DNA of 32,126 nt from a virus. The notes below the pieces were generated by a model, which searched no databases, was not told where the DNA came from, and saw only the letters and a program-made list of their open reading frames with translations. This document shows, piece after piece, positions 1 through 31,771 of this stretch. Positions within the stretch are counted from its first letter, which is position 1. Each line of letters opens with the position of its first letter. The stretch spans positions 1-32,126 of the IMG/VR virus record IMGVR_UViG_3300027706_000032, one strand, 5' to 3'. The position numbers and the translations under genes are program-made.

Positions 1-110
1 ACGACAGCCAGGTCTTCCTCCAGCTTGGCAAGGCGCGCGTGGATCCCGTCACGAAACTCCTCCTTCGCTTCGAGCGTGGCGAGGCGCTCTTCCACCGTGG
101 GCGCATCCAT
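1..110 (-). CDS. Partial gene: small coiled-coil protein, N-terminal part
   Basis: Only the first 36 codons are in the window; the gene runs off the left edge. The start is an ATG at 110 preceded by GGAGGTGA with about 8 nt spacing, and that ribosome site lies across the stop codon of the large ejection protein upstream, so the two are probably translationally coupled. The visible peptide (MDAPTVEERLATLEAKEEF and onward) is charged, with leucine/alanine at heptad spacing, which fits a coiled coil. Small coiled-coil proteins of this kind often sit near lysis genes in phages (XhlA-like), but nothing visible proves this, so function is left open. Confidence 0.55.
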   Translation of the reverse strand, partial: MDAPTVEERLATLEAKEEFRDGIHARLAKLEEDLAV

Positions 111-118
111 GGATGTCG

Positions 119-3100
119 TCACCTCCCTCCGAGCGAGGGGGGCTTCGGCCCCTTCGGGAGACCGGGGAGGCCGAGGCCCCCGGAGACCTGTCCTTCTGTC
201 GCATAGAACGGTGTGAGACCGAACAGATAGAGCCACAGCTGGTCGCGCGGAATCTGCAGACCCGCCTTGAGATTGAAAATGTTTACGATTGGGGTGGGAA
301 GGATATCGCTTCCGACGAGCTTGGCAAGATCTTCAAAGTCGACTGGCTTGTGCCCTGGTCCCAAAAGAGTTATTGCATCAGCAAGCATTCGCACGGGAAC
401 GCCTGATTTCGACTTGGCCTCCCAGACAACGGGGCGGAAATCGGGCTTCGCCTGCGGATCTCCTGCTCTCTTCAGATATTCCTGGTAGGCATATTCTGCC
501 AGGTGATATCCGAGAATCTCGGCGTCTGTCGTGTACTCCTTGATGCGGAAGTACTCGCCCTTTCTCTTCCTCTTGTCGATCTTTTCTCCGATTCTGATGT
601 CGAACTTGTGGTATCCGGGATTATTCGCGGCCCAGGTTCCTGTGACGGCATACTGGATAGAGTTCGTCCACAGAAATTGCAGGACCATAGCACGAAAATT
701 GATGGCATTGGCGACCTTCATCATTACGAGGCGTTCTTCGGGAGAGACCGCCGCAGGCAGGTATCGCCCCCCTACGAGTTTTCCTCCGATGCGGGTTCCT
801 GATTGCGCCAGCGAGGCGTATTCTCCGAACGTGTAATGTATAGCAAAGAGAAGGGTGTTGCCGTATTTCTGGAGCCACAGCGGGAGCATCGAGCGCGGAA
901 TGCTCCCAAACCGAGTGGCCACGAGGGCGGCGGCCACGCGCCCCGCGCGTTCTTCAGGAAGACGGACGCGCACGCCGTTCTCATAGACATCCTTCTCCAT
1001 GAGGAGTGCCTTCAGGCGCTTGTACGCGAATCCTTGGAGAGCGGGAGCGAGACGCTGGAAGAGCAGATCTTCGGCGACCCGGTAGACGGCCTTGCCGACC
1101 GGAAGAATGATTGTCGACGTGGCGAGAGCGCGCACCCACGGATATCTCTCTGCGAGCCGATTGAAGAGTTCTCCCGAGAATGTCGAGAACTCACGGTGGA
1201 GAACGTCGACATCGAGGCCGTTCTGCTTCATCTCGGCATAGATGGGATCGAGGCGCCGAAACTCCTCATACGCACGAATGACGTCCGGCCACTTCCACGG
1301 CAGAAGGATATCGGGGGCGATGGAGGCAGCCGCTCCGATCAGGGTGCGGCCGTGGAAGATCGGGTTCCAGCCTATGATGAGCTTGCGGAGATCCGACGGA
1401 ATCCCCCAAAGAGGGCGCCCTCCTGAGGGACCGACATAGCGGTCGAGGACCTCAACGAGCGGCTTCGGCGCATACATCGTGTAGGGCCGGAGCTCGCTGA
1501 CAGAGAGGACCTGCTCGTATCCAGGAAGCTTGACAGGAGAGAGCAGACCAAGGTTCTCGAAGACGTTCAGGATGGAGTGCGTGGCGGTTGCGTCGGCTGA
1601 GTGCGTGATTCGGCGCGTGATGATGTCGAGGGGGTCGTAGACGGGCTTCAGCCCAATCCTCTCAGCAAGAGCATGGTTCAGCTTCTGCGGCTTCACGTGG
1701 TGGAATTTCGTAATGAGACCCCGGCGCTCCTCGCTGATCTTTGTTCCCACTTCAAGATAGGACCCTGATTCTCCGAAGAGGTCCTTTGAGAGCTCGTTCT
1801 CGAATCCGTCGGCGAGGGACGCGGCTTCCTCAGCCGTCTTCCCCGCCGCCTCGGCAACCTTCATGAAGGCCGCTTTCGGTGTGTGGTTGGGCAGGAGGCC
1901 GCGGTACGTTTGCAGGAAATCTCCAACATTCTCGATGCCTGCTGTTTTCGCGAGATAGCCGGGAAGGAGAGCATCTCCGCGCTCAATCCACAACTTCGCG
2001 AGCGCAGTGGGGATCTCCTCGGGGTTCTTGAAGAAGAGCGCGAGGTACCGGTCCCGCTTGGGATAGACGTATCCCACTGCCTTCTCCGCCTTATAGAGGG
2101 CATCGAGGACGGCTGTCACATAGGACGCCATGCGTTTGACCCCTTCGGGGGCGTTTGGATCTGGAGTCAAGACCTGGCGGCCGACCCGCTCCCAATCTGC
2201 TTTTGTAACGACACCGACTCGCCGACCTTCGTCGACGAGGAATCTCCTGATCTTCTCGATGTAAAACTGAACAGTGGATACGTAAGACTCTGCGCCTTTG
2301 ACGGCCTCTAGCCCTTTGACACCCTCTTCAGTGAGCCCCCCCTCGCGCAAAACCTGCGCATCTTTTGAAATGAGATAGCCGGGAAAATTCACGCGCGTTA
2401 GGGCGCTTACAAGAGGCTGAAGGATCGGCCGAATCGCACGGAGTTCGGGAGGAACGTTGACAATGTATCGATAGGGAGAGATCTTTGTCAGCGCATCGGC
2501 GACTTGCTCCTTTACCTCATTCGGGCCCTGTGGGGGGCGGTTCGCTTCGGTCGGACCCCGGCTCGTGTAGACGGAGTCGGTATACGTCACTCCCGACTGA
2601 GGGTCGATGGCGGGGCTTCGCCCGCGCACGGCTCCGACCGATTCGGCCATCTCGCGCTTGGCGGTCGCCTCGGCCGCCTTCTCCGCGTAGGTCGCCTTCC
2701 CCGTGCGAGGCGAAATGAGGCGCTGGAGATCGCGTGGGAGCTCTCCCACGCGGGGAGACGGCCCCGGAGGGTCGAGACGCCAGTGCGGCTCGGGCAAAGG
2801 CGCAGGGTGCAGGGTAACAGTAGGTTGCGGTGGGAGCCCCGGAGACAGCGTTCCGGGAGACTGCACGACCCTGATCTGGGTCTTGCCGCCCGCGTGCTCG
2901 GCGACTCGCCATGTTCCGGCGGGCGTTTCTCCGAGAGGTTCCGCCAGCGGAGAGCGGACGATCTGCGGAGCGGGAACGCGCACCTCGGGGCGGAGCGGGG
3001 TCGCTCCGACCGGGGCTCCGGGGCGCGTGGCAGGAGGTGTCGGCGTCAGGACCTTCTGCGCGACGGCGGAGGTCGCCGCCCGCGCGGCCGCGTGCGCCGC

Positions 3101-4462
3101 CTCTCCCTGCGCTCCGGTCGGAGGGTGCGCGGCGGGGGTCGATGCCGCTTCTCTCTCCAGATCCGCTATAGCGCGGGCGCGAGCGAGATTGCCCTTGAGC
3201 ACGAAGAACCCCTTGAGCCCCGGCAACAGGAGAAGCGTGTTTGTTACGGTCAGCTGAGGATCGCGCTTGAACTCTTCGAACCACCAGGCCCAGACATTCT
3301 CCGGGATCTTCTCGGCCAGCAGGAGCGTGGCCTTCGCGGGAGGGATGTTGTGCGCCCTTGCCCACGCATAGTAGTCTTCGATGTACTGGCGCGCCGCCTG
3401 AACGGTTGGAAAGGCGTCCTTCTCGTAGGCTTTCGCCGCGGCCACGTGGCCCGCGACGACCTGTTCAGCCTTTTGGCGGTCTCCGATGAGCGTATAGTAC
3501 ACGCCCTGAACGATCCCCGCGACATCGTTCGCGATCCCTCCGAGAATCGCCACCGCATCGTGGTGAATGGCGGCGATGGGCTGGAGAGCTCCCGCGACGA
3601 ACTGGCCTCCGACGATCAGGGGCTGCCGCACGACGGGGGTCACGCCGGGGAATGTCAGGGCCCGAGCGAACTTGTTCCACAGGCGGTCGACGGCTTCAAC
3701 GTAATTGTGCGTCTCGGTTGGGAGCGCGGCCCCCTTGTCGATGTTCGCAATGACCCGGGAGTACCCGCCATTGTAGGCCGCGAGCGCCATCTTCCATGCC
3801 GTTCGGTCGTCCATCGCGGGGTAGCGCGTCGTCAGATCATCGTGCAGCCTCCGCAGATAGAGCGCTCCGTACAGGAGCTGGAGACCTGGCTTGGAGGCAA
3901 CCTGCTGGGGATCGACACCGAGCCCTCTCACGGTCTCCGGCATGAGCTGGGTCAGCCCGAACGCTCCCGCCTTCGAGACGGCCTTCGGATTCCACCCCGA
4001 CTCCTGAGTGACGAGTCCCAAGAACAGAGGCACCGGGATCCCGAACGCTTGCGCCGTCTTCACAGCTTGTGCGTACCAGGGCGAACGCGGAATGCCGGGC
4101 GGAGGCTCCGGCGCGGTCGGTGTCGGAGCAGGCGCCGACGGCGCTGTGAGCCGGACCCCGCCGGGCGGGAGCTGCTCGCGGGTTGGGATCTCGCGCACAT
4201 CGGCGCCGGCGCCGGTCGGGGGGATCGCGCGCGTGCCTGCGTCATCCTCGCTCTTCTGAAGAGGAGGCGGTGCGCCTCTTACAGAGATGATAGGCGAGGG
4301 CGTGCCTGCGTCATCCTCGCTCTTCTGAAGAGGAGGCGGTGCGCCTCTTACAGAGATGATAGGCGAGGGCGTGCTAGGCGCATCTCGCACGGATCCAATC
4401 AGCGGGGACTGCGACGGAATCTCGCTCGGCGCGCCTCTGACAGCGATGATGGGATCAGCCAT
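119..4462 (-). CDS. Large ejection/internal virion protein with lytic transglycosylase (SLT) domain
   Basis: 1447 residues. Residues about 128-260 form a soluble lytic transglycosylase domain that would cleave peptidoglycan during DNA entry: the catalytic glutamate is E154 in TQESGWNP, followed by GAFGLTQLMPET and the ALAAYNGG motif. Before it lies a proline-rich leader (residues 1-125) with four copies of P(I/L)I-x-VR-x-AP and an exact 69-bp tandem duplication. The remaining ~1,180 residues are mostly helical and resemble no enzyme I can name. Size and N-terminal SLT placement parallel T7 gp16. I chose ATG at 4462, not the GTG at 4483, because it forms a TGATG junction with the upstream gene and has AGGTGA in front. 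It is last in the ejection block, as expected for a gp14/gp15/gp16-like order. The domain call is firm; virion location is inferred. Confidence 0.85.
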   Translation of the reverse strand: MADPIIAVRGAPSEIPSQSPLIGSVRDAPSTPSPIISVRGAPPPLQKSEDDAGTPSPIISVRGAPPPLQKSEDDAGTRAIPPTGAGADVREIPTREQLPPGGVRLTAPSAPAPTPTAPEPPPGIPRSPWYAQAVKTAQAFGIPVPLFLGLVTQESGWNPKAVSKAGAFGLTQLMPETVRGLGVDPQQVASKPGLQLLYGALYLRRLHDDLTTRYPAMDDRTAWKMALAAYNGGYSRVIANIDKGAALPTETHNYVEAVDRLWNKFARALTFPGVTPVVRQPLIVGGQFVAGALQPIAAIHHDAVAILGGIANDVAGIVQGVYYTLIGDRQKAEQVVAGHVAAAKAYEKDAFPTVQAARQYIEDYYAWARAHNIPPAKATLLLAEKIPENVWAWWFEEFKRDPQLTVTNTLLLLPGLKGFFVLKGNLARARAIADLEREAASTPAAHPPTGAQGEAAHAAARAATSAVAQKVLTPTPPATRPGAPVGATPLRPEVRVPAPQIVRSPLAEPLGETPAGTWRVAEHAGGKTQIRVVQSPGTLSPGLPPQPTVTLHPAPLPEPHWRLDPPGPSPRVGELPRDLQRLISPRTGKATYAEKAAEATAKREMAESVGAVRGRSPAIDPQSGVTYTDSVYTSRGPTEANRPPQGPNEVKEQVADALTKISPYRYIVNVPPELRAIRPILQPLVSALTRVNFPGYLISKDAQVLREGGLTEEGVKGLEAVKGAESYVSTVQFYIEKIRRFLVDEGRRVGVVTKADWERVGRQVLTPDPNAPEGVKRMASYVTAVLDALYKAEKAVGYVYPKRDRYLALFFKNPEEIPTALAKLWIERGDALLPGYLAKTAGIENVGDFLQTYRGLLPNHTPKAAFMKVAEAAGKTAEEAASLADGFENELSKDLFGESGSYLEVGTKISEERRGLITKFHHVKPQKLNHALAERIGLKPVYDPLDIITRRITHSADATATHSILNVFENLGLLSPVKLPGYEQVLSVSELRPYTMYAPKPLVEVLDRYVGPSGGRPLWGIPSDLRKLIIGWNPIFHGRTLIGAAASIAPDILLPWKWPDVIRAYEEFRRLDPIYAEMKQNGLDVDVLHREFSTFSGELFNRLAERYPWVRALATSTIILPVGKAVYRVAEDLLFQRLAPALQGFAYKRLKALLMEKDVYENGVRVRLPEERAGRVAAALVATRFGSIPRSMLPLWLQKYGNTLLFAIHYTFGEYASLAQSGTRIGGKLVGGRYLPAAVSPEERLVMMKVANAINFRAMVLQFLWTNSIQYAVTGTWAANNPGYHKFDIRIGEKIDKRKRKGEYFRIKEYTTDAEILGYHLAEYAYQEYLKRAGDPQAKPDFRPVVWEAKSKSGVPVRMLADAITLLGPGHKPVDFEDLAKLVGSDILPTPIVNIFNLKAGLQIPRDQLWLYLFGLTPFYATEGQVSGGLGLPGLPKGPKPPSLGGR
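4231..4368 (-). repeat. Exact 2 x 69-bp tandem repeat inside the ejection protein gene
   Basis: Positions 4231-4299 and 4300-4368 are identical over 69 bp. The unit is 23 codons, so the reading frame is kept and the protein gains a second proline-rich segment ending in LQKSEDDAG. A partial third unit begins at 4369. Identity at every base, including third positions, points to a recent duplication. Confidence 0.93.
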
Positions 4463-8716: not shown

Positions 8717-9304
8717 CTACGGAGTGAATCCTCCGGCAATCCCTCCGCCTCCTGTGTAGCCACCCCCACCGCCAGAGCCCCAGCCTCCTCCTCCGCCTCC
8801 TCCATAGCCACCCCCGCCCGTGTCGGGAGCGCCCATGCCGCCGAAGTCTCCGCTAGCGGCTGTTCCGCCCTCGCCCCCGACCCCCGCGGGGTACGCCGCG
8901 GGAGGCGGTGTCGGCTGAGGCGGGGGCGTGTACGGTTGCACTGGGGTCGCCTGGGGCGGTGTCGGTTGCACGACCGGGGTCGTGGGCGCGAGCACCTGGC
9001 TCAGGAGCTGCTGCAGGAACGACATCGCGGGCGTGCTGAACGCCGCCCCTCCCTGGGGCGAGAAGAGGCCTCCCTGCCCGCCGATCAGCGCAATGTAGGG
9101 AGCGAGCGCCTGCCAGATCGACGCCGTCACGTCTCCGCCCGCGCCGGTCCCGGCCGCCCCTAGGGTCGGCTGGCGCACGGGATTGGGGCCGAGCGCCTGC
9201 GGCGGGGTCGTGCCGAGACCCGTCGGCTGGTAGTTCCCGCCCAGGAGCTGAGAGATCAGCGTCCGGATCGGGCCGTAGTCTGCTGTCGGAAGAGGCCCTA
9301 TCAT
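8717..9304 (-). CDS. Glycine-rich virion-region protein with FLQQLLSQ helix
   Basis: 195 residues in three parts. Residues 1-60 are a mixed N-terminus (IRTLISQLLGG). Residues about 60-115 contain SIWQALAPYIAL and the FLQQLLSQVLAP helix shared with the next gene. The C-terminus (about 120-195) is Pro-rich, then almost entirely Gly with Tyr/Trp (long runs of GGGG). Such glycine-rich tails occur in phage structural and fibre-associated proteins as flexible linkers. ATG with AAAGGAGA upstream is a strong start. No enzymatic motif. The paralogy is visible in the sequence; the structural role is inference from location. Confidence 0.6.
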   Translation of the reverse strand: MIGPLPTADYGPIRTLISQLLGGNYQPTGLGTTPPQALGPNPVRQPTLGAAGTGAGGDVTASIWQALAPYIALIGGQGGLFSPQGGAAFSTPAMSFLQQLLSQVLAPTTPVVQPTPPQATPVQPYTPPPQPTPPPAAYPAGVGGEGGTAASGDFGGMGAPDTGGGGYGGGGGGGWGSGGGGGYTGGGGIAGGFTP

Positions 9305-9337
9305 ATGACAGATTCTCCTTTCATTCCTATTCTATCA

Positions 9338-9853
9338 TTAATGCACGGTGAACACAACGTCGAGCCACAGCGTGATCGACTGCCCCGTCGGGATGCTGGC
9401 AGCCGTCGCGTTGTAGAGCGAGACCGTCACGAGCACGGCGAAGCTGCTGTAGATCGTGCCGCCCGCGAACACGCGGCCCTGGAAGACGACCTGGCCGCTC
9501 GCGGCGAGCGCGACCGTCTGCAGGCTCTGCAGGCACAGGCCCGCCACGCCGTGCTGGACCCACGGCACGACATGCACGTAGAGCGACAGCGGCGGGTCGA
9601 TGAGGAGCGGCGGCACGTCCGAGAGCGGCACCTGCTGCGTAATCGTGATCGCCTGCCCGCTCGCGATGGCGGCGCTCGTCGTGTACGCGTACGAGTACTG
9701 GTTGTCCCACAGCACGAGGGACGACGGGTTCGTCGTGACCCGCGCGGGCGCAGGCACGCCCGCCGGGAACGGCGGCTTCGTGCGCTTGGTCCCGACCGCG
9801 TACTCGTCGAGGACGCGCTGCGGGATCGTCTCGGTCGCGCGGGGAGTGGCCAT
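9338..9853 (-). CDS. Probable virion structural protein, beta-rich
   Basis: 171 residues, predicted mostly beta-strand: alternating hydrophobic stretches such as SLYVHVVPWVQHGVAG, QVVFQGRVFAGGTIYSS and ITLWLDVVFTVH. There is no catalytic motif or signal peptide. It follows the propeller-type tail protein with the upstream stop two bases before its ATG, so translational coupling is likely. A jelly-roll-like decoration, tail or fibre-accessory role would fit, but I recognise no family. Confidence 0.55.
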   Translation of the reverse strand: MATPRATETIPQRVLDEYAVGTKRTKPPFPAGVPAPARVTTNPSSLVLWDNQYSYAYTTSAAIASGQAITITQQVPLSDVPPLLIDPPLSLYVHVVPWVQHGVAGLCLQSLQTVALAASGQVVFQGRVFAGGTIYSSFAVLVTVSLYNATAASIPTGQSITLWLDVVFTVH

Positions 9854-9855
9854 GT

Positions 9856-11640
9856 CTACATCGGCACCGTCAGCTCAGAGTCCGGCCACCCGACGAGCAG
9901 GAGCCGCTGAATCTCGATCTGGATCGTCGACGACGTGGTGATCGACACCTGCGCCTGGTACGCCTTGTGGGGCGGCGGAATGCTGATCTGCTTGCGGATC
10001 GGGTACGCCGAGAGGTCAACGCTCCGCGAGGTCGACGCCTGGTTCACGCCGGGGTCGAACACGACCGTCACGGTCGCGAGCTGGCCGCTCTGGATCGGCG
10101 CCACGAGCTCGATGTACCGGTACGTCTTCTTCGCCTGCGGCATCCCGCTGTCGTCGATCTTGCCGACGAACGACGCGCCGATGCTCGCGCCGAGGTCCGT
10201 GCTCGCGGCGAACCACGTGTCGATGTTCCCGAGGCCCGGCCTGCTCCCGTCGACCTCCTCAACCGACGGGTCGTAGTACGCGGTCTCGGCCGCCCACCCG
10301 ATCTTGTACCACTCCTGGGTCGCGATGTTGTAGCAGTACGTCACGCCCTGCGCGGGCAGGCTCAGGTACCAGACGCCGTTCCGGTAGAATCCGACCGCGC
10401 GCGAGAGGTCGGACGTCGACAGCGCGAGGAGGGTCGACTGGATGTTCGTGCTGATCCGCGTCGGCTGCTGGCCGTCGAACATCCAGGCGCCGTCCTTGCT
10501 CAACCAGAACACGACCCCGAGCGCGACCGTGATGGAGCGGGGCGCGATGCACCCGATGTCCAGGATCTTGCGATGCACGAACGACGTCGGATCGTCCCCG
10601 TACAGCGCCCACGTGCTGAACTGCTTGAAGAAGACGAGGATAGACCCCAGGGACGCGAGCCCCTGCGCGAAGTCCTGGACGCTCGATTTCCCGACCGAGA
10701 AGTACTGGTTCAGCAGGTCCCAGCCCCACGGCTCCTTGTAATTGCTGAACCAGCACCCACTCGGGTCTCCGGGCGCCCCGAACACGAACAGGCGCTCCTT
10801 GTGGGCGGCGATGTACCAGGCGCCCACCGGAGGCTGGTCGCGCACGAGCACGAGCTGCTGGCCGAGGTTGCTGTCCGCCACGTTGTCCGTGAACGTCGTC
10901 GTCGTGTTGTCGGTGATCGTGCCCACGAGCTTCCACACCGAGGACGTCCCGCCGAGCCGGTAGATGTTGCGCTGCGTGACCTGCGGGTCCGAGCTCGTCG
11001 GAATCCCCGACAGGCTCGCCGACTGGTTCGTGAGCGTGAGCGGCCCGGCAATCGGCCCAGGACCGGATTCCTGCGTCGCGTTCCCGAACGTCACGCGCCA
11101 GTAGTAGGGGTTGCCCTGGCTGTTGAGATTGCCCGCTCCTCCGGCCGCGACCGTCGGCGCCACCGTGGGCGCGGCGATCTGCGCGAGCGTGATCGCGAGG
11201 GTCGGGTCGATCTTGACCATCGGATCCTTGCCGTTCACGACGAACAGCCAGTAGTTCGATCCCGTCCCCGCCTGCGCGAAGTAGGTCGGCTGCGAGGCCG
11301 TCGGCGTGACGTTCGAGGGGTACGTCAGCTGCGCCGGAGCGGTCGTCGTCGTCCACTGCCACAGGGCCGCCGCGCCCGTCGACGTGTTCGCGGCCCCGAT
11401 GTAGACGGGCGACTGCGGCGCGAGGCGGTCGAACCGCGTGAAGCCGAGGCAGGCCGACGGGAGCGCGCCCGTGTTCGCGACCCGGCCGAGGACCGTCACG
11501 TAGCTCCCGAGCTTCTGATCGGGAACGAGGTTCAGGACATCGACGCACCGCTTCGGGTCGATGAAATAGGACGCCGTGAAGACATCGAGCCCCTTGAACG
11601 GGCCGAGGTCGACCAGCACCTGGGGGCGGCCAATCGGCAC
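9856..11640 (-). CDS. Tail hub / DNA-stabilisation-like protein (propeller-type)
   Basis: 594 residues. Repeated beta-blade-like units run through the protein, including YYWRVTFGNATQESGPGP, RLFVFGAPGDPSGCWFSNY, VVFWLSKDGAWMFDGQQP and VWYLSLPAQGVTYCYN, plus a fibronectin-like stretch around residues 175-260. This pattern of kelch/propeller-like repeats with WYKIGW-type motifs is typical of podovirus tail hub or nozzle proteins with the roles of P22 gp10 and T7 gp12. The start is GTG (MPIGRPQVLVDLG), with GGGGAG about 9 nt upstream and the previous stop nearby. Downstream genes are ejection and tail components, in line with the assignment. The family match is by pattern, not a proven homology. 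Confidence 0.55.
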   Translation of the reverse strand: MPIGRPQVLVDLGPFKGLDVFTASYFIDPKRCVDVLNLVPDQKLGSYVTVLGRVANTGALPSACLGFTRFDRLAPQSPVYIGAANTSTGAAALWQWTTTTAPAQLTYPSNVTPTASQPTYFAQAGTGSNYWLFVVNGKDPMVKIDPTLAITLAQIAAPTVAPTVAAGGAGNLNSQGNPYYWRVTFGNATQESGPGPIAGPLTLTNQSASLSGIPTSSDPQVTQRNIYRLGGTSSVWKLVGTITDNTTTTFTDNVADSNLGQQLVLVRDQPPVGAWYIAAHKERLFVFGAPGDPSGCWFSNYKEPWGWDLLNQYFSVGKSSVQDFAQGLASLGSILVFFKQFSTWALYGDDPTSFVHRKILDIGCIAPRSITVALGVVFWLSKDGAWMFDGQQPTRISTNIQSTLLALSTSDLSRAVGFYRNGVWYLSLPAQGVTYCYNIATQEWYKIGWAAETAYYDPSVEEVDGSRPGLGNIDTWFAASTDLGASIGASFVGKIDDSGMPQAKKTYRYIELVAPIQSGQLATVTVVFDPGVNQASTSRSVDLSAYPIRKQISIPPPHKAYQAQVSITTSSTIQIEIQRLLLVGWPDSELTVPM

Positions 11641-11646
11641 TTCCGG

Positions 11647-11805
11647 TCACTCCCCGCGTAGCTTCGCGAGCTCCTTCTGCAGGGACTCGACCTGCGCCTG
11701 CAGCGCCTGCAGGGACTGGTTCGCCTGCTCCTGCTGGAGCTGCATGTGACCGAGCGCCTGCGCGACGAGCTGCACGAGAAGCGCAAGACCAAGGCGTTCC
11801 ACCAC
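11647..11805 (-). CDS. Small helical protein with C-terminal coiled coil
   Basis: 52 residues starting at a GTG (VVERLGLALLVQLVAQ), chosen because AGGAGGT lies 6 nt upstream; longer in-frame starts read through the arginine-rich gene before it. An amphipathic/hydrophobic first half is followed by a glutamine- and leucine-rich coiled coil (LQALQAQVESLQKELAKL). It may be a small membrane-attached or oligomeric assembly protein. No family is recognised. Confidence 0.5.
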   Translation of the reverse strand: MVERLGLALLVQLVAQALGHMQLQQEQANQSLQALQAQVESLQKELAKLRGE

Positions 11806-11809
11806 GGTA

Positions 11810-11986
11810 TTACCTCCTCCGGCGGCCCCGGGCCGCCATCTTCTGGAAGCGGCGCTTGCCGTAGCGCCGCCTCCCGATCCACGCCGCAAGCGCGCGGGGA
11901 TTCTTCGCGCCGCGCTTCCGGAGCTTTGCGGTGAGCTTCTTGAAGCGGCCTCCCCCTCCAGGTCTCATGGACTTACGTCGAGCCAT
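11810..11986 (-). CDS. Small, very basic phage protein
   Basis: 58 residues starting MARRKSMRPGGGGRF and containing ALAAWIGRRRYGKRRFQKM. About 40% is Arg or Lys. Small proteins with a conserved ALAAxIGRxKYGxxxF core recur in tailed-phage genomes without known function; nucleic-acid or capsid-interior binding is plausible from charge. The ATG at 11986 has AAGGAGGA about 8 nt upstream; the in-frame ATG three codons earlier sits directly on the ribosome site and is rejected. Confidence 0.6.
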   Translation of the reverse strand: MARRKSMRPGGGGRFKKLTAKLRKRGAKNPRALAAWIGRRRYGKRRFQKMAARGRRRR

Positions 11987-12087
11987 TGCTGCCATCCTCC
12001 TTTCTTCTTTAGCCGCATGCAGGACGCGCACGCGCCGGAACCATTATGAGCCTCTCCGCTAGCGTCAGCCGACAAGAAATCTTTTCT

Positions 12088-13683
12088 CTAATTCGTGGCG
12101 GGCATGATTTGGACGACCATTGTGGGCCACTGGCCGCTCCCGCTGTTGTATATCGTGAAAGAAGTTCCTGAGGCGTTGACACAGTACTGGAGGCTGATCG
12201 TGTGAGATGCTCCGTCTCCCGTGATGACAGCGAGGAGAGCGAACGTGTTGGTGTTGTTCGAGCTTCCACCGATGCTATCGTTCTGAAGGACCGTTGTCCC
12301 ATCGACAAGGTAGACGGTCCCATTGACGGTCGCCGATGCCGAAGCCCCGAATCCCGCCGCCTGAACAATAGCCTTCGCCCCCACAGGAATTGTCACGGTC
12401 GTCTGCAGATTTGTGGAATCGACCGCGACGGGGGTGGTGCTTGTTGTCGTGTAGTTCCCTGTTCCCGACCCTCTGAGGTAGATCACCCTCGGGATCAGCT
12501 GGACGCCGTTGTAGATAATCTGGCCCCCGCTCGGGCCGTTGATGGCGAGGTTGCTGTTCGTCTGGGCCTGGAACAGCCAGGAGTACTGCGTGCCGCCGCC
12601 TGTCGATGTGCCTGCGGTGACGGCCTGGAGCTGGAGGGAGGTGGTCTGGGCAGGGGAGTTCGCCCCCGTGCTGAAGGCAGAAAGCAGGAGCTGGGCATCC
12701 CCCGAACGAGTGCCATTACGGAAAAATCGGGCAATAGTCGCGCTTGAATCGACGAGGAAGTCGAAGTAGGTGGAGCCTCCGGTGAGAACCGTGAGCGCGT
12801 TCGTAAAGTTCTGATAATCGGGGCTCAGGAGAATTCTCGCCCCATTTCCGCCTTTTACAACGAATGAATCGTAAACGTCGTCGGGGTCTCCTCGCTGTAA
12901 CGAGAATGGCTGTGTCGCCCCAGGGATTTGGCTCGGGGCCGCGAGGATCGTGACATTCCCCGTGTCGTTCAGGTTGATGCGGCCTGGGGAGGCGGGGGGG
13001 GCGCCGCCGAAGTTCAGCATCTGATAACCTCCAATAAATACGCTTCCCCCGCTTCCCCCGTTATCCCAGTTAAGATAGACACCTCTACCTGTCCCAGCGG
13101 TGAGGAAGAGATCCCCGCCGCTGGTATACCGCATGAAGGATTTCGTCGTCGAGAGCGTGGGGACCGTCGCGTTGTCTGTGTGAATCTCGAACGTGCCCTG
13201 AGTCCCCGAGAGCGCGAGATACGTCGTTGCAATCTGCGTTCCCGATCCCGTAACGCTCGAGACGGTCGCGTTGGCGACGCCGAGAGTGCCCGACAGCGAG
13301 GCGTTCGTCGCCGACAGCGCCCCCGATGCCGTCACGTTCCCCGAGACATCGATGGTCGCAAGGACTGTCCACGTGATCGCGCCCGCCGTCGCGGCGGAGT
13401 AGATCTTCTGCCAGTTCCCCGAGGCGTCGATCCTCCAGCCGTCGGCCTCGGCGGCCGTGTTCACGCAGACCCAGTTCGTGCCGTTGTACGTGGCGTTGTT
13501 GACGATGTAGAGGACGCCGCCGACCTCTCTGACCTCGCACTGACGCGCGTTCGTCTCCGTGCCCTGGAGGACGACCCCGGGGTTCGACTTCGAGATCAGC
13601 AGGTCCGCCGTCAGCAGGCTGTTCGCGGGCGACGCCTGGCTGGGCGCGAACGTGAAGAAGGACTCCTGGCCGAAGATGCTCAT
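12088..13683 (-). CDS. Tail fibre / receptor-binding-type protein
   Basis: 531 residues, Ser/Thr/Gly/Asn-rich and beta-structured. The N-terminal ~30 residues (SIFGQESFFTFAPSQA) probably attach to the tail. Residues about 45-100 hold a WVCVNTAAEADGWRIDASGNW module common near fibre tips and shafts; the shaft has GTLGVANATVSSV repeats (about 110-160). The C-terminal 130 residues (from about 400) look like a beta-sandwich head (TPVAVDSTNLQTTVTIPVG). No lyase or deacetylase motif was seen, so a depolymerase is not supported. It lies between adaptor and hub-like genes. Host recognition is inferred from composition and place. Confidence 0.7.
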   Translation of the reverse strand: MSIFGQESFFTFAPSQASPANSLLTADLLISKSNPGVVLQGTETNARQCEVREVGGVLYIVNNATYNGTNWVCVNTAAEADGWRIDASGNWQKIYSAATAGAITWTVLATIDVSGNVTASGALSATNASLSGTLGVANATVSSVTGSGTQIATTYLALSGTQGTFEIHTDNATVPTLSTTKSFMRYTSGGDLFLTAGTGRGVYLNWDNGGSGGSVFIGGYQMLNFGGAPPASPGRINLNDTGNVTILAAPSQIPGATQPFSLQRGDPDDVYDSFVVKGGNGARILLSPDYQNFTNALTVLTGGSTYFDFLVDSSATIARFFRNGTRSGDAQLLLSAFSTGANSPAQTTSLQLQAVTAGTSTGGGTQYSWLFQAQTNSNLAINGPSGGQIIYNGVQLIPRVIYLRGSGTGNYTTTSTTPVAVDSTNLQTTVTIPVGAKAIVQAAGFGASASATVNGTVYLVDGTTVLQNDSIGGSSNNTNTFALLAVITGDGASHTISLQYCVNASGTSFTIYNSGSGQWPTMVVQIMPATN

Positions 13684-17633: not shown

Positions 17634-18500
17634 CTACTCGCTGCTCAGAAGCTCATCGAGCTCTTTGTCTTCGAGCCCCCCGAGCCGCGCGACATCCCGA
17701 ATTGCCTCCAGGGTCTTCGCGTCGGCCTGCGGAGCCCGTCGTTCGGCCGTCCCTCCCGGAGCTCCCCCCGTCCCGCCCATCACGGGCGGCGTCTGCTGAG
17801 GGAGCTTCACGCCCCGTCTCTGGGCGCGATCCAGGCTCTGGGCGTAGGCGATGCCCATCGCCGTGAAGAGGATCTCGCCGAGCACGCGGTCGAGCTGCGC
17901 GGGGTCCATGCCGTCGAGGTGCCTCTGAGCCACGAGGCGGTCGAAGTAGGTCTCGACGCTTGCGAAGAAGGGGACGGAGGAGCGAGCGCGACTCTTGAAG
18001 CCCTCGATGCTCTGCCGGAGCGCGAGCTGCTTGACAGGACCGAGCGCCTTCTCCAGCGCGGCCGTGACGGCGGCCTGCGAGGTCATGAGGGTCGCGGCGA
18101 GGGGGTCCTGCTCGTACAGCCGCTGCCACTGCTCCCGCGCCTTCTCCAGGTCCGCTGGTTGGGGCTGAGGCTGGACCGGCTGAGGAGCGGGCTGAGGCTG
18201 CGGAGCGATGTAGCCGCGCGCGAGGGCTGCTCGGATCTCGTGGATCTTGGTCGGATCGCGCTCCAGCTCGTCGGCGAGGGCATCGAGTCCGAGCTCGCGG
18301 TAGCGTCGGACTTGCCGCTCGACCTCACGGAAACGTGCGAGGGGAACGACCTTGCTATCCGGTTCGCCAGACTCCGCCGTCGGAACTCCTGACACGGCAG
18401 GCTCTGACGTCCTTTCCCCTTCCTCACCCGTCGGTGCAGCAGGCGTCGACGCCGGGGACTCGTCGAGGAGAGGTACACCGAACTCGTTCTCAGCTTGCAT
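17634..18500 (-). CDS. Scaffold-like head assembly protein
   Basis: 288 residues. An acidic, disordered N-terminus (residues 1-50, rich in Glu, Pro, Ala, Ser), a helical segment (LARFREVERQVRRYRELG), a Gln/Pro linker of repeated PQPQP (about 98-115), a long helical body (about 115-240), and an acidic C-terminal helix (LGGLEDKELDELL). Length, acidity, helicity and position between portal and capsid genes fit a capsid scaffolding protein that directs shell assembly and then leaves or is cleaved. Its ATG lies 11 nt inside the upstream homing-endonuclease gene, which therefore supplies its ribosome site (GGTGGGATACA). No protease domain visible. Confidence 0.6.
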   Translation of the reverse strand: MQAENEFGVPLLDESPASTPAAPTGEEGERTSEPAVSGVPTAESGEPDSKVVPLARFREVERQVRRYRELGLDALADELERDPTKIHEIRAALARGYIAPQPQPAPQPVQPQPQPADLEKAREQWQRLYEQDPLAATLMTSQAAVTAALEKALGPVKQLALRQSIEGFKSRARSSVPFFASVETYFDRLVAQRHLDGMDPAQLDRVLGEILFTAMGIAYAQSLDRAQRRGVKLPQQTPPVMGGTGGAPGGTAERRAPQADAKTLEAIRDVARLGGLEDKELDELLSSE

Positions 18501-19014
18501 TGTATCCCACCGCCTTTAAGTTGTCAATAGCCCTGGCAGGGCCCGTCCGGTTCAGTTCTTTTAGCTGGCGGCGCGTCTCCATTACGAATGCCCTCGCAAT
18601 GAGCGAGAAAGGCCGGCCAGATTTTCCTTTCTGATACAGTTCCCCCCTCGCCCGAAGGTGTTGCGCGACATCCCGAAGGTTGAGGAGCAGACTCGCCTGC
18701 GACGTCTTAATCACCAGATATGGGTACAGGCGGGACAGAATGTAATTAGCCGAGTCTCCCGTCCAGAGTGCCATTCGAGTCTCTTTATGCGCCGAAGTAG
18801 ATCGGCGATTAACTGTGACTCTTGCAAAAAACTTGTCTCTCAACCACTCCATGACCCGCGGGTTCGTGTTTGTTACTCTCAGCGCTGGGCTTAGCGTGCA
18901 TTGCCGCCCGCCATTCAGATACACAGATCCCTCCCCGTCAATAAGCCCAGCGAGGTATGCCCATTCAGTTTCGGTTATCTCGTCGTATCGAGGCTCTTCA
19001 GGAACTCCATCCAT
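18490..19014 (-). CDS. LAGLIDADG-family homing endonuclease
   Basis: 174 residues with one LAGLIDADG motif, YLAGLIDGEG (residues about 20-29), followed by a conventional beta-strand stretch and VTNTNPRVMEWLRDKF, and basic helices in the C-terminal half. One motif implies a homodimer, and the DG(E)G pattern keeps an acidic catalytic residue. Such enzymes cut a long target and spread their own gene. The ATG at 19014 has GGAGGT about 7 nt upstream and is preferred to the longer in-frame reading, which is only antisense to the HNH coding region. It overlaps the HNH-like gene by 40 nt and the scaffold gene by 11 nt, so it is embedded in the head operon without gaps. Confidence 0.8.
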   Translation of the reverse strand: MDGVPEEPRYDEITETEWAYLAGLIDGEGSVYLNGGRQCTLSPALRVTNTNPRVMEWLRDKFFARVTVNRRSTSAHKETRMALWTGDSANYILSRLYPYLVIKTSQASLLLNLRDVAQHLRARGELYQKGKSGRPFSLIARAFVMETRRQLKELNRTGPARAIDNLKAVGYNAS

Positions 19015-19406
19015 CGCGATGACCTCCGACTCTGCAGGTATGACGTGATCTTGCTGAGCCAACGCATCTCGTCCCGTTGCGGAACCATCTTCATGCACAT
19101 CCTGCACAGCAGCCCTCGGATCTCGCCGTCCTCCGCACGGCGATCCACGGAGAGCCGAGCCTGCCGGCCATCGCGCCCGCAGAGAGCACACACGCCCCGC
19201 TGGCGGCGCCAGAGCGCCATGTATTGGTCGTAGCTGACCCGACCCCTCTCGCAGACCGGAGCAACCGCTCTCCTCCAAGCGTCTTCCTGCTCGACACAGG
19301 CGCTGCAGAGGCGATACCGCACGCCGTGCTTCGTCAGCGGGAATTTCGCCTCGGGCAGGCACCGCCCGCACAAGCCACAGCGAACGAGAATGTCCGCCTC
19401 ATTCAA
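18975..19406 (-). CDS. Endonuclease VII-like HNH protein, catalytic residues apparently lost
   Basis: 143 residues. The N-terminal part has Cys pairs CGLC (10-13) and CSAC (34-37), which could bind zinc. The second part has the Endo VII/HNH layout: YDQYMALWRRQRGVCALCG (59-77), then LSVDRRAEDGEIRGLLCRMC (85-104). In this family the motif is normally DHxH with a following Asn (DHDH...LLCxxCN). Here D88 remains but both His positions are Arg89/Ala91 and the Asn position is Met105. The zinc Cys (73, 76, 101, 104) remain, so it folds but may not cut. The start is a TTG at 19406 overlapping the previous stop by 8 nt, with no clear ribosome site, so coupling is likely. Confidence 0.7.
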   Translation of the reverse strand: MNEADILVRCGLCGRCLPEAKFPLTKHGVRYRLCSACVEQEDAWRRAVAPVCERGRVSYDQYMALWRRQRGVCALCGRDGRQARLSVDRRAEDGEIRGLLCRMCMKMVPQRDEMRWLSKITSYLQSRRSSRWMEFLKSLDTTR

Positions 19407-28294: not shown

Positions 28295-28537
28295 CTAGGT
28301 CTCGATCCTCACCCAGGCGTGGACGTCGTAGTACTCGTCTCCGCTCTGTGTGAAGAACCGCCGCGGCGTCCTCTGCGAGACCGCCTCGACGAGCGTCGGC
28401 GACGCCGCGAAGAACGACGTCACACCCTCCGCCACGACCGTCCCCTCCTTCGCGACGACGAACCGGCGTGCATCGTCCATGAAGACCTCGTACACGTCCG
28501 AGACGTTCTCGGCCTCGCGGGCGGGCACGACGAACAT
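28295..28537 (-). CDS. Small protein, unknown
   Basis: 80 residues: MFVVPAREAENVSDVYEVF, FVVAKEGTVVAEGVTSFFAA, then EYYDVHAWVRIET. Mixed alpha/beta, acidic, no motif. Start uncertain: the ATG at 28537 has only a weak ribosome site, and an in-frame upstream region is arginine-rich. It lies in the early operon between the AbrB-like and zinc-ribbon genes. Confidence 0.5.
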   Translation of the reverse strand: MFVVPAREAENVSDVYEVFMDDARRFVVAKEGTVVAEGVTSFFAASPTLVEAVSQRTPRRFFTQSGDEYYDVHAWVRIET

Positions 28538-28577
28538 GCCGCCCGAGCACAGGGCGCGGCTCCCGCGCCTTGCGCGG

Positions 28578-28820
28578 CTACCACGCGATCCTCTGCGACG
28601 GGTCGACGACATCGAGAATGTCCTCCTCCTTCGGCTCCGGAGCGGAAGGTCCATCGATGGTCGCCTCCGCCCTCCGCAGGATCAGCGTCTTCCCGGGGCC
28701 GCGCTCGATCACGATGTCGGTCCCCGGCTCGACGCCGATCTCCGCGAGGAGCGGGAGCGGCACGACCACGAGCCCGCGCTTTCCCACGCGGCGCCGTCCG
28801 CCCTTGTAGACTCTCGACAC
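28578..28820 (-). CDS. AbrB/SpoVT-like DNA-binding protein
   Basis: 80 residues. KRGLVVVPLPLLAEIGVEPGTDIVI (split as KRGLVVVPLPLLAEIG and VEPGTDIVI) with following LILRR is the AbrB swapped-hairpin DNA-binding pattern: VxKRGxVVIPxxLxxxLGIxPGD. The N-terminus is basic (KGGRRRVGKRG), and the acidic C-terminal tail (APEPKEEDILDVVD) may form contacts. These proteins act as dimers or tetramers on DNA, usually as transition-state regulators or antitoxins. First gene of the minus operon, beside the divergent control region, so autoregulation is the natural idea. GTG at 28820 with GAGGAGGGA upstream; a 146-residue in-frame version would read through the repeat/promoter DNA and is rejected. Confidence 0.7.
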   Translation of the reverse strand: MSRVYKGGRRRVGKRGLVVVPLPLLAEIGVEPGTDIVIERGPGKTLILRRAEATIDGPSAPEPKEEDILDVVDPSQRIAW

Positions 28821-28859
28821 GAGACATCCCTCCTCTCGCACTGACTTCGCCGTCCAGCC

Positions 28860-28887
28860 TTGACCGCCCGGTGTCGGCGGGTATATC
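28860..28887 (+). promoter_or_regulatory. Candidate promoter for the helicase gene
   Basis: TTGACC (28860-28865), 16-bp spacer, TATATC (28882-28887). The spacer contains the operator-like CCGGTGTCGG at 28868-28877, so a bound protein would block RNA polymerase. It reads toward the plus-strand gene, leaving about 140 nt of leader. Confidence 0.5.
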
Positions 28888-28963
28888 GTGGGGGTCGGCG
28901 GAACCTCACGCGCACCCGAGGCTCCGGCACCGGAGACCCCGACACCGGAGGATCCGACACCGG
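28868..28963. repeat. Operator-like repeats, CCGAYACCGG, in the divergent control region
   Basis: Copies at 28924-28933 (CCGGCACCGG), 28939-28948 and 28954-28963 (both CCGACACCGG) stand exactly 15 bp apart in one orientation. An inverted exact copy lies at 28868-28877. A weak fourth begins near 28909. They occupy the region just downstream of the minus-strand -10 and inside the plus-strand promoter spacer, typical of an operator or iteron set shared by divergent genes. Confidence 0.7.
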
Positions 28964-28971
28964 GCGACTCC

Positions 28972-29000
28972 ACAGTACACCCCCTGCTCCGGGGTGTCAA
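28972..29000 (-). promoter_or_regulatory. Candidate promoter for the minus-strand operon
   Basis: On the minus strand, a perfect TTGACA (29000-28995), a 17-bp spacer, and TACTGT (28977-28972), which keeps the key T-A-----T positions of the -10. Transcription would start near 28965, running into the repeated operator sites, so repression by a protein bound there is likely. It is the only good sigma70-like match found in this gap on that strand. Confidence 0.6.
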
Positions 29001-29029
29001 GAGAGAGCGCCCCCACAAGGAGGCATGAC

Positions 29030-31117
29030 ATGGCTCGCATCCGAGACATCTCGTCCCACCGGTTCCTCGACGCGGCGCTCTCCTACGCCGAGCTCGGCTG
29101 GTCCGTTCTCCCGCTCGCTCCCCGCAGCAAGGCCCCCGACGGCGAGCTCGCCCCGCACGGCGTCCACGACGCCTCGCGCGATCCCGCCGTCATCCGCCGC
29201 TGGTGGGAGCGCCGCCCCGACGCGAACGTCGGGATCGCCTGCGGGCGCCCGAGCGGCGTCGTGGCGCTCGACGTCGATCCGCGGCACGGCGGCGACGCCA
29301 GCCTCGCGCGCCTCCTCGGCGAGCGCGGCCCGCTCCCCCCGACCCCGATCTCGCAGACGGGCGGAGGCGGAGCGCACATCGTCTTCCGGTACGCGCCCGA
29401 GCTCTCCTCGGCCAGGCTCGTGCGCGCGGGCTACCCCGGCCTCGACCTCAAGGCGGACGGAGGCTACATCGCCGCTCCGCCGTCCGTCCACCCGGAGGGC
29501 GGCGAGTACGCCTGGGAGGACGGCCTCTCCCCGTGGGACGTGGGCTCGGCCGACCCTCCCGCGTGGCTGCGCGACCTCCTCACCGAGACCCGGCACGCCG
29601 TCCCGAGAGGCGGCGGATCGTGCCTGTCTGATGAGATCGTCCAGGCGATCGCCTCGATCCTCCGGCCCGCGTGGACTCCCGACGGCGGGGTCCGGCACCG
29701 CCTGGCGCTCGGGATCTCCGGCATGATGGTCCGGGCCCACCTCCCGCTCGACGACGCGCGCCGCGTGCTCGATGCCATCGTGGGAGACTCCGGCGACGAC
29801 GAGGGCGACGACCGCCGCCGGGCGCTGTGGGACACGCAGCAGGCGTTCGTGTCCGGCCGCGAGGTGGCGGGCGCGACGCTCCTTGAGCCGATCCTCGGGC
29901 AGGACGCCGTCGCGCGCCTCCGCGACCTCCTGGGGACGGCGCGGCGGACTCTCGGGACGCGGCCCGTCATGCAGAATCTCGGAGGCCTGGAGCGCGAGGA
30001 GATCCGCTGGCTCTGGCACCCGTACATCCCGCTCGGCAAGCTCACGCTTCTCGATGGCGATCCCGGCCAGGGCAAGACGTGGGTGGCGCTCGCCATCGCG
30101 GCGCTCGTGACGCGCGGAGGCCGGACGGAGCTGCTCCGCTCCCGGCGGCCGTCCGAGATCGCTCGGACGTCCGAGATCGCTCAGACGTCCGAGATCGCCG
30201 CCGCGGCGCCAGCCGTGGCCGCCTCCGGCGTCATGGCCGCCTCCGGCGTCATGGCCGCCTCCGGCGTCATGGCTGGCTTCCTCGCCGAGCCGGGGAGCGT
30301 CCTGTACCTCTCGGGGGACGACGGCGTCCGCGACACGCTCGTGCCCCGCCTCCAGGACCTCGGGGCCGACCTCTCGCGCGTGACCGTGCTCCTGGGGAAG
30401 GGCGAGCTGGGGAGCGACGGGGTCCGGCCCGTGACGCTCGCCGACCTCGCCGTCCTGGAGGAGGCGCTTCGGAGCCTTCCGGACGCCCGCCTCCTCGTGC
30501 TCGACCCCATCACGCAGTACCTGGGGCGGAAGGTCGACATGTTCCGGGGCAACGAGACGCGGCCGGTCCTGGAAGGTCTCGCGAGGCTGGCCGACGCGCA
30601 CCGCGTGGCCGTGCTCATCGTCCGCCACCTCACGAAGACGCAGCGGGACCGCGCGATCTACCGCGGCCAGGGCAGCATCGACATCACGGGGATCGCGCGC
30701 TCGGCGCTCCTCGTCGGCCCGGCCTCGGCGTCCGACCCGTGCGCGAAGGCCATCGTCCACATCAAGAGCAACCTCGCCCCGACCGGTCCCGCGAGGGGGT
30801 TCCGGCTCGACCCTCCGGGTCCGAGCGGGCCGGGCGGATTCTCATGGACGGGGGTCGCGGACGGCGTCACCGCGTCCTCCATGCTCAGGCCCGATGCCAT
30901 CGAGGACCCCGAAGACGTGAAGGCGTCCCTTGACGATGCGCGGGCGTTCCTCCTCGAAACCCTTGGCGGAAAGGCCGTGCCTGCCGAGGATGTCCTCAAG
31001 CAGGCGAAGGCAGTCGGGATTTCCAGAGCGACCCTCTTCCGCGCGAAAAAGCAGCTCAATGTCCGATCCCTCCGAAAAGGAGAAAAATGGCTGTGGAACT
31101 TGCCACAAATGACATGA
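29030..31117 (+). CDS. Primase-polymerase / RepA-type helicase fusion
   Basis: 695 residues. N-terminal bifunctional primase-polymerase domain (about 12-180): GWSVLPLAPRSKAP, VVALDVDPRHGG with D81/D83, GGGGAHIVFR with H116, and GLDLKADGGYIAAPPS. A middle segment (about 200-300) is helical. The RecA-like helicase domain (about 325-580) has Walker A GDPGQGKTW (343-351), Walker B RLLVLDPITQYLG (487-499) and VLIVRHLTK. The C-terminus (about 625-690) looks like a winged helix (LKQAKAVGISRATLFRAKK). It would prime and unwind DNA at the origin. ATG with AAGGAGG 7 nt upstream; the long reading upstream of it is non-coding. A 36-residue insert of repeats follows Walker A. Confidence 0.85.
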   Translation: MARIRDISSHRFLDAALSYAELGWSVLPLAPRSKAPDGELAPHGVHDASRDPAVIRRWWERRPDANVGIACGRPSGVVALDVDPRHGGDASLARLLGERGPLPPTPISQTGGGGAHIVFRYAPELSSARLVRAGYPGLDLKADGGYIAAPPSVHPEGGEYAWEDGLSPWDVGSADPPAWLRDLLTETRHAVPRGGGSCLSDEIVQAIASILRPAWTPDGGVRHRLALGISGMMVRAHLPLDDARRVLDAIVGDSGDDEGDDRRRALWDTQQAFVSGREVAGATLLEPILGQDAVARLRDLLGTARRTLGTRPVMQNLGGLEREEIRWLWHPYIPLGKLTLLDGDPGQGKTWVALAIAALVTRGGRTELLRSRRPSEIARTSEIAQTSEIAAAAPAVAASGVMAASGVMAASGVMAGFLAEPGSVLYLSGDDGVRDTLVPRLQDLGADLSRVTVLLGKGELGSDGVRPVTLADLAVLEEALRSLPDARLLVLDPITQYLGRKVDMFRGNETRPVLEGLARLADAHRVAVLIVRHLTKTQRDRAIYRGQGSIDITGIARSALLVGPASASDPCAKAIVHIKSNLAPTGPARGFRLDPPGPSGPGGFSWTGVADGVTASSMLRPDAIEDPEDVKASLDDARAFLLETLGGKAVPAEDVLKQAKAVGISRATLFRAKKQLNVRSLRKGEKWLWNLPQMT
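30151..30271 (+). repeat. Two in-frame 18-bp tandem repeats inside the helicase gene
   Basis: GTCCGAGATCGCTCGGAC-type units start at 30151, 30169 and 30187 (encoding SEIA-rich hexapeptides). A different 18-bp unit at 30218, 30236 and 30254 encodes AASGVM three times. They form a flexible insert between Walker A and Walker B and keep the frame. Confidence 0.9.
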
Positions 31118-31321
31118 GAGCAAGAGTATCAGGCGCCAATTGTCAATTTTTAAGAGTATCAGCGGGGCGCCTGATACTCTTAAAAGTTGACAATTGCACG
31201 GCGTGCAATCGTCAATTTTTAAGAGTATCAGCGGGGCGCCTGATACTCTTAAAAGTTGACAAATTGGCGCCTGATACGCTTAAAAATTGACAATTCTCCG
31301 AAAAGGAGAAAAATGGCTGTG
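31070..31321 (+). repeat. 26-bp duplication of the helicase gene end
   Basis: Positions 31070-31095, inside the last codons of the helicase gene, recur exactly at 31296-31321 in the non-coding region. The block contains AAGGAG, four A's and ATGGCTGTG. The second copy is followed by TAA, giving the three-codon reading Met-Ala-Val-stop. Confidence 0.9.
31137..31196. repeat. 26-bp inverted repeat, one mismatch, 8-base loop
   Basis: Arms 31137-31162 and 31171-31196 pair over 26 bp with one G-U-type mismatch; loop CGGGGCGC. A second hairpin of 21-bp arms with the same loop follows at 31211-31231/31240-31260. No following T-run; both may be binding-site pairs, cruciforms or mRNA 3' ends. Confidence 0.85.
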
Positions 31322-31417
31322 TAAGTTTTGGCGCCTGATACTCTTAAAAGTTGACAAGTGCACGGCGTGCAATCGTCAATTTTTAAGAGTATCAGCGGGG
31401 GGTATATAGAGTATGAG

Positions 31418-31472
31418 ACTCTTTGATACTCTTGAAGGGGGAGGGGGGAAGAGTATAAGAGTATCAAAGAGT
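31418..31472. repeat. 16-bp perfect inverted repeat with purine-rich loop
   Basis: ACTCTTTGATACTCTT (31418-31433) pairs exactly with AAGAGTATCAAAGAGT (31457-31472), separated by 23 nt that are mostly G and A (GAAGGGGGAGGGGGGAAGAG). Part of the origin-like array; polypurine loop may favour unusual DNA structure. Confidence 0.85.
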
Positions 31473-31519
31473 ATCAGCACTCTATATATAGCGCCTGATA
31501 CTCTTAAAAATTGACAATT

Positions 31520-31542
31520 ACACGGCGTGCATATCGCCGTGT
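31520..31542. repeat. 8-bp hairpin at the end of the array
   Basis: ACACGGCG (31520-31527) pairs with CGCCGTGT (31535-31542), loop TGCATAT. The related perfect palindrome GCACGGCGTGC occurs at 31196-31206 and 31360-31370. Confidence 0.75.
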
Positions 31543-31595: not shown

Positions 31596-31771
31596 CTGGC
31601 AGCTCCTTCGCAAAGGCGATGCGAAGACCCTCGTTGGGCTCGGTCCTTGGTGGGACCGCAATGAGCGGTCGCTCACTGAGCGGTCGCTCACTGAGCGGTC
31701 GCTCACTGAGCGGTCGCTCACTGAGCGGTCGCTCAGTGCTGGCAGCTCCTTCGCAAAGGCGATGCGAAGAC
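31596..31771. repeat. 33-bp direct repeats bracketing a 15-bp palindrome array
   Basis: Exact 33-bp copies at 31596-31628 and 31739-31771 (CTGGCAGCTCCTTCGCAAAG and onward) surround a hairpin (CGGTCC 31641-31646 with GGACCG 31653-31658) and the tandem palindromes. The distance between copies is 143 bp, not a multiple of three, so they are not a coding repeat. Confidence 0.92.
31662..31735. repeat. Five tandem 15-bp palindromes TGAGCGGTCGCTCA
   Basis: TGAGCG-GT-CGCTCA starts at 31662, 31677, 31692, 31707 and 31722, each 14 bp with a one-base spacer (C). All five are identical. Fixed 15-bp phasing puts copies on nearly opposite faces in turn of the helix, suitable for cooperative binding by a dimeric protein; an operator or partition/origin element. 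Confidence 0.92.

Follow-up and report, generated by a model that had tools for sequence, protein, structure and literature searches.

The locus raises the question of how two blocks of phage genes that read away from each other are controlled from the short stretch of DNA between them. The window, by which we mean the whole stretch analysed, is the virus contig IMGVR_UViG_3300027706_000032 (record G000), which has 32,126 bases and 66% G+C. Leftward genes occupy positions 119 to 28820, and their products include a phage SU10-type portal, the terminase large subunit, a capsid-like protein, a GroES-like protein and a DUF4406/DUF6378 protein. The junction is made up of the following features.

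28578–28820, minus strand: AbrB/MazE-like protein of 80 aa with a GTG start, the first leftward gene, assigned by sub-threshold profile matches
28821–29029, no strand: putative control region between the leftward and rightward blocks, 209 bp, 68% G+C, from codon statistics
29030–31117, plus strand: Prim-Pol + AAA_25 helicase of 695 aa, the first rightward gene (PF09250, E 8e-43; PF13481, E 2e-26)

We give roughly an even chance (about 0.5) to the reading that 28821–29029 is a control region in which two facing sigma-70-like promoters interfere with each other and a protein tips the balance between them. It would separate the leftward block of a tailed phage, with the AbrB-like gene and the nucleotide-metabolism, terminase, portal and other virion genes, from the rightward Prim-Pol helicase gene. 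Such a control region belongs to a kind familiar from phages; it is ordinary and not a new kind of thing.

The 209-bp gap is non-coding. The third-position G+C bias typical of the genes of this phage was absent from every frame of the gap: the G+C content by codon position was 0.64, 0.73 and 0.70 in the AbrB frame of the gap and 0.72, 0.47 and 0.89 inside the AbrB-like gene. The codon score was negative in all six frames, and in the AbrB frame it was −22.6 over the 66 gap codons versus +41.1 over the 81 codons of the gene. AGGAGG-type Shine-Dalgarno-like sites precede both start codons, GTG at 28820 and ATG at 29030. These results bear on the reading that the repeats described below encode an N-terminal extension of the AbrB-like protein with a 5-residue repeat, as the frame 28578–29018 is open and translates as Ser/Gly/Val repeats, and comparable arrays elsewhere sit within open frames. 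Considering the lack of codon bias and the ribosome sites at both starts, one of them immediately ahead of GTG 28820, this open frame is not a real extension. The coding reading, whether as a repeat or as a minisatellite, was therefore ruled out on codon statistics, the codon-position bias being missing in the repeat frame, and its probability is very slight.

Two promoter candidates lie in the gap, with start positions placed by ordinary −10 spacing.

28860–28889, plus strand: rightward promoter candidate, TTGACC (28860–28865), 18-bp spacer, TATCGT (28884–28889), predicted start about 28896
28972–29000, minus strand: leftward promoter candidate, TTGACA (29000–28995), 17-bp spacer, TACTGT (28977–28972), predicted start about 28965

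Both promoter sequences are seen directly in the DNA. The TTGACA and the 17-bp spacing of the leftward candidate agree with the original prediction; its −10 box retains TAnnnT and has only three of the six consensus bases. The rightward candidate had been proposed as TTGACC-16-TATATC, and this sequence is indeed present (28860–28887, the alternative −10 box TATATC at 28882–28887 leaving a 16-bp spacer), but TATCGT at a spacing of 18 bp is the better pairing. The pattern TTGAC-(16..18)-TAnnnT, which follows an E. coli-type consensus that may not be that of the host, occurs four times in the 32-kb window (one plus, three minus) against a shuffle mean of 0.315, and none of 200 shuffles reached four. 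These strict sites are plus 28860, minus 29000, minus 23024 (TATACT) and minus 18527 (TACAAT); the sole plus site of the window and one of its three minus sites fall in the 209-bp gap. None of 5000 shuffles of the gap had a strict site on both strands (rate on either strand 0.0), and six control patterns made by scrambling or reversal matched 0, 0, 0, 1, 0 and 1 times. The strongest argument for both being promoters is that two of the four window sites lie in the gap, one per strand, although it falls short of proof. A looser 9-of-12 score gave candidates on both strands in 1.2% of 571 overlapping real 209-bp tiles. Within 28700–29100 there were no other candidates of at least 8/12 upstream of either start codon and no better back-to-back candidates; one further candidate of at least 8/12 starts at 29025, past the right-hand gap promoter, and overlaps the helicase start. 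When −35 boxes matching at five or more of six positions and TAnnnT are required, no other pair in the window faces each other within 200 bp. The promoter counts, together with the missing coding signal, give good support to the earlier proposal that promoters for both directions lie where the gene blocks meet.

Two other readings of sequences in the gap were rejected. The promoters share a likeness, CTTGAC..CCCGG..GGGTRTA..GTGG, for which 88 of 1000 gap shuffles reached the promoter-pair alignment score, and 46 of 1000 shuffles reached the best score; as proof of common origin the likeness is weak over the whole gap and partly built in by the selection of promoters. The intrinsic terminator candidate on the minus strand at 29025–29008 is within noise (five found versus 2.4 expected over 5.1 kb). 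The two strict sites outside the gap are strong promoter candidates of the leftward block: minus 23024 (TTGACA-18-TATACT) lies at the 3′ end of the terminase gene and minus 18527 (TTGACA-17-TACAAT) at the start of the gene 17634–18500.

The order of the two candidates is as directly visible as the candidates themselves: the plus promoter, on the left, is directed rightward, and the minus promoter, on the right, is directed leftward. The gene blocks thus diverge while the promoter candidates converge, as far as sequence-level order and orientation tell. The promoters had been described as divergent; it is the genes that diverge, whereas the promoters face each other and do not stand back to back. 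This facing order was left out of the original prediction, as was a 21-bp dyad in the minus promoter that is described below. Given the facing order and starts at about 28896 and 28965, each polymerase would cross the other promoter, and leaders of about 70 nt would be complementary. In the mechanism that we propose, both promoters would fire, the rightward one starting near 28896 and transcribing through the leftward promoter, the leftward one starting near 28965 and transcribing through the rightward promoter. They would suppress each other through collision or occlusion of polymerases, with a complementary leader of about 70 nt, and a DNA-binding protein, AbrB-like or other, would tip the balance via the cluster of CCGRCACCGG repeats, the dyad of the leftward promoter, or both.

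Facing promoters of this type are known from coliphage 186, where pR converges with pL and pE and where the interference has been studied (PMC7708051, PMC6593788). As in 186, the two gene blocks have opposed promoters, candidates here, whose transcripts would overlap; at the level of DNA sequence only, this is the arrangement of a phage 186/P2-type facing pair. Unlike in 186, whose regulators are CI, Apl and CII, the AbrB-like gene leads the virion genes and its partner is the helicase, a scan of 10 window proteins revealed no CI-type repressor, and the promoters are predicted ones. Genes for a lysogeny repressor or an integrase were likewise not seen among these 10 proteins, a subset of the genes of an incomplete contig; of a further 9.3 kb belonging to the same phage, 5,000 bases were read.

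Between and within the promoters lie the repeats through which a protein could act.

28868–28877, minus strand: inverted CCGACACCGG copy inside the rightward promoter spacer, exact-motif search
28924–28933, 28939–28948 and 28954–28963, plus strand: three direct CCGRCACCGG copies at 15-bp steps, exact-motif search
28913–28963: tandem array of 3.4 copies with 80% matches, TRF

The repeats are directly seen, and both the three CCGRCACCGG sites at 15-bp steps and the inverted copy in the spacer of the second promoter stand as first described. On both strands of the window these four exact sites are the only ones, all within 96 bp (0.51 expected; 1 of 100 shuffles reached four), and the tandem triple was produced by none of 500 shuffles. 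With one mismatch allowed, 19 window sites were found versus 13.5 expected, thus the motif is distinctive only as the exact form and by its clustering. A further record of the same phage added one exact CCGRCACCGG elsewhere, no more than the reversed control.

The array may instead be a neutral minisatellite, which could have arisen by slippage or short duplications and would have no role in binding, leaving only the promoters to matter. Nine arrays scoring at least 60 were found in the window versus two in total over 20 shuffled contigs; their periods are 15, 17, 18, 30, 31 and 69, six of the nine are located right of 28.9 kb, and two lie inside the helicase gene. The three-copy motif with 15-bp steps also occurs in nine other IMG/VR stretches, all in open frames reading as 5-residue simple repeats, and no inverted copy was found within 150 bp at the 13 array positions of these stretches, which are not independent as four of them share the same flanks. 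Since arrays are common in the contig and the motif occurs in open frames elsewhere, the array alone argues only weakly for an operator. A neutral origin is, however, harder to reconcile with the array being only 80% alike, where the other long arrays of the window are mostly 94–100% alike, and yet keeping its 10-bp core: one of the ten core positions differs among the three copies versus three of the five spacer positions (by eye). The minisatellite would also leave the inverted copy unexplained. We regard it as a plausible reading that falls short of being probable.

The inverted copy proved to be part of a longer inverted repeat.

28865–28877: left arm of a perfect 13-bp inverted repeat, partner 28954–28966
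28954–28966: right arm of the same repeat, located where the leftward mRNA is predicted to begin

Among 300 shuffles the longest such repeat had 11 bp; two other real window tiles, both in the repeat cluster at 31.1–31.5 kb, exceed 13 bp. Of the three array copies, only copy 3 continues the match to the inverted copy into the flanking GCG, where copies 1 and 2 carry AGA and AGG; this shared flank points to a pairing between copy 3 and the inverted copy. Rather than four equal sites, the copies are one tandem array and one inverted-repeat pair, and since the three direct sites form a single tandem array, they are not independent of one another.

In the leftward RNA the arms would form a stem of 14 pairs (13 perfect and a G-U) with a duplex energy of −30.1 kcal/mol, present in both the MFE and the centroid structures. 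The pair may accordingly be an RNA element, in which the first 13–14 nt of the leftward mRNA would pair with 28864–28877; the arm would begin within 1–2 bases of the predicted start, and such a 5′-terminal stem might protect the transcript or influence the shape of its leader. On the other side, the folding of the whole leader does not stand out from that of shuffles (z −0.71; 48 of 200 equally good), the start site is a predicted one, and Rfam gave no match, and we consider an RNA element rather unlikely. As the pair would also form this 5′-end stem, it argues for a shared operator only ambiguously, and an inverted repeat or an RNA stem accounts for the extended match to copy 3 at least as well as an operator does.

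A protein to bind these sites could be encoded next to them. The 80-aa protein matched PF04014 (E 5e-4, 20.4 bits) under the curated cut-off of 24.7 and TIGR01439 (14.9 bits) under that of 28.3, the alignments to the AbrB/MazE profiles being nearly full length (2–42 of 48 and 1–43 of 44). A single-sequence model, examined for the swapped-hairpin beta-alpha-beta fold of such proteins, gave the order E-E-E-H-E-E with a pLDDT of 54.1, too low to use, and the PDB search returned one match with E 0.23. No homologues were found in 50,697 phage and 72,556 plasmid records (E<=1). The next gene (28295–28654) had no match in Pfam, PHROGs or NCBIfam.

From the placement of the sites, an operator shared by both promoters is possible: the four CCGRCACCGG sites would form one operator family, and the AbrB-like protein would bind it and repress both promoters. 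The clustering of all exact window sites agrees with this, and so does their position, one within the rightward promoter and three just downstream of the leftward start. By analogy, an AbrB-like binder at the gap is possible and has a close precedent in C68 of the Sulfolobus plasmid-virus pSSVx, a virus-encoded AbrB-like protein that binds two copies of its motif between its own and a divergent promoter (PMC5569661). That system differs in its archaeal BRE/TATA promoters, its motif TATG(C/GG)TTTTC and its CopG-homologue partner gene, where a bacterial-type promoter pair and putative binding are met here. The AbrB-type proteins MazE and Kis bind perfect or alternating palindromes that overlap their own promoters (PMC4803016). 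The profile scores below the curated cut-offs and the lack of homologues speak against the shared operator, and so do the match of the inverted copy to copy 3 beyond the motif and the spacing of the copies, as 15-bp steps correspond to 1.4 helical turns and would place neighbouring copies on different faces of the helix. Taken together, one operator family serving both promoters is unlikely. A second candidate lies in the leftward promoter:

28977–28997: dyad ACACCCC-7-GGGGTGT, 21 bp, filling the leftward promoter spacer, alternative operator candidate

The dyad would be the classical location for self-repression on the AbrB side, and in filling the promoter spacer it resembles the MazE and Kis operators, although no toxin partner was recognised here. 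Dyads of such size occurred in 15% of shuffles and in 22 of 137 real tiles, which is not significant alone; as a true operator the dyad was set aside, similar dyads being common in the window.

The early/late switch of phage phi29 runs through one protein, p4, which acts on promoters of both classes within a single intergenic region, though p4 does not resemble AbrB and recognises inverted repeats rich in A/T. The most elaborate variant for the present gap would be an early/late switch that combines the two facing promoters with the small AbrB-like protein on tandem-plus-inverted sites and with control at the RNA level. The protein would then repress the rightward promoter and form a roadblock immediately beyond the leftward start, and the complementary 70-nt leaders and the 5′-terminal stem would contribute the RNA-level control. 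We consider this full switch improbable. A limited literature search found no description in a bacterial phage of an AbrB-like regulator with a divergent promoter or of a C68-like arrangement.

Direct repeats upstream of a replication gene could alternatively be the iterons of a replication origin beside the Prim-Pol helicase, and the C-terminal part of the helicase, which matches phrog_296 and phrog_25488, is helix-turn-helix-like as judged by eye. The gap, however, has 68% G+C and no A+T-rich unwinding stretch, the repeats follow each other in 15-bp steps, and the minimum of the cumulative GC skew is near 31 kb, at an A+T-rich inverted-repeat cluster that is the better candidate. An iteron-type origin in the gap was thus disfavoured on GC skew and base composition and is very unlikely. 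The cluster itself (31122–31540) consists of long inverted and direct repeats (AAGAGTATCAGGCGCCTGATACTCTT, TTGACAATT) with 45% G+C versus 66% in the contig, and at the GC-skew minimum it is a candidate for a replication origin or a large operator cluster. It contains a copy (31296–31327) of the last bases of the helicase gene (31070–31101; 32 nt, 94%), suggesting that duplication or recombination took place in this cluster. At 31596–31771 a 15-bp palindromic unit, TGAGCGGTCGCTCAC, occurs in five nearly perfect copies flanked by two identical 33-nt direct repeats. Elsewhere in the window, two 18-bp tandem arrays of the helicase gene (30146–30198 and 30216–30273) code for a repeat inserted downstream of the Walker A region (position of the Walker motif by eye), and a perfect tandem duplication of 69 bp lies in a large virion gene (4231–4374).

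Related sequences were sought for comparison of the gap. Searching IMG/VR with the terminase yielded two records of the same phage, L003 with 99.98% identity to the window across 12,122 bases and L004 with 99.96% across 8,348 bases; both stop short of 28821, near window positions 25065 and 25046, and do not contain the control region. The ends of these two contigs, which come from other samples, fall within 20 bases of each other and may reflect an assembly break, a genome end or a variable region. Neither the helicase nor the AbrB-like protein found relatives in IMG/VR, and the exact promoter string had no match there; these protein and string searches, together with L003 and L004, provided no related sequence containing the control region. 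Against genome contigs only the Prim-Pol domain of the helicase matched, at 35–37%, and these matches were left aside. The record behind L003 continues for at least 9,283 bases past the left end of the window (window 1–3000 corresponds to 9284–12283), and the 5,000 bases read of this extension contain large rightward frames that are helicase-, DNA polymerase- and nuclease-like by eye. One of the frames in the extension (L009, 1425–3662; 745 aa) appears by eye to fuse a uracil-DNA-glycosylase-like domain to a family A DNA polymerase. Among the virion genes of the window, LAGLIDADG-type endonuclease-like and HNH/endonuclease VII-like frames (by eye) are inserted at 18490–19406.

The locus illustrates that a divergent gene pair need not have divergent promoters, which matters wherever such regions are read by eye. 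If the early/late switch were true, the gap would be a bacterial-phage counterpart of C68 in a CI-free, 186-like layout. If the reading of two interfering promoters is right, 28821–29029 would be where an uncultured high-G+C phage, almost without relatives in public collections, exerts its principal gene control, and it would make it possible to test precisely and at low cost whether a gene switch in a bacterial phage can be operated by an AbrB-like protein.
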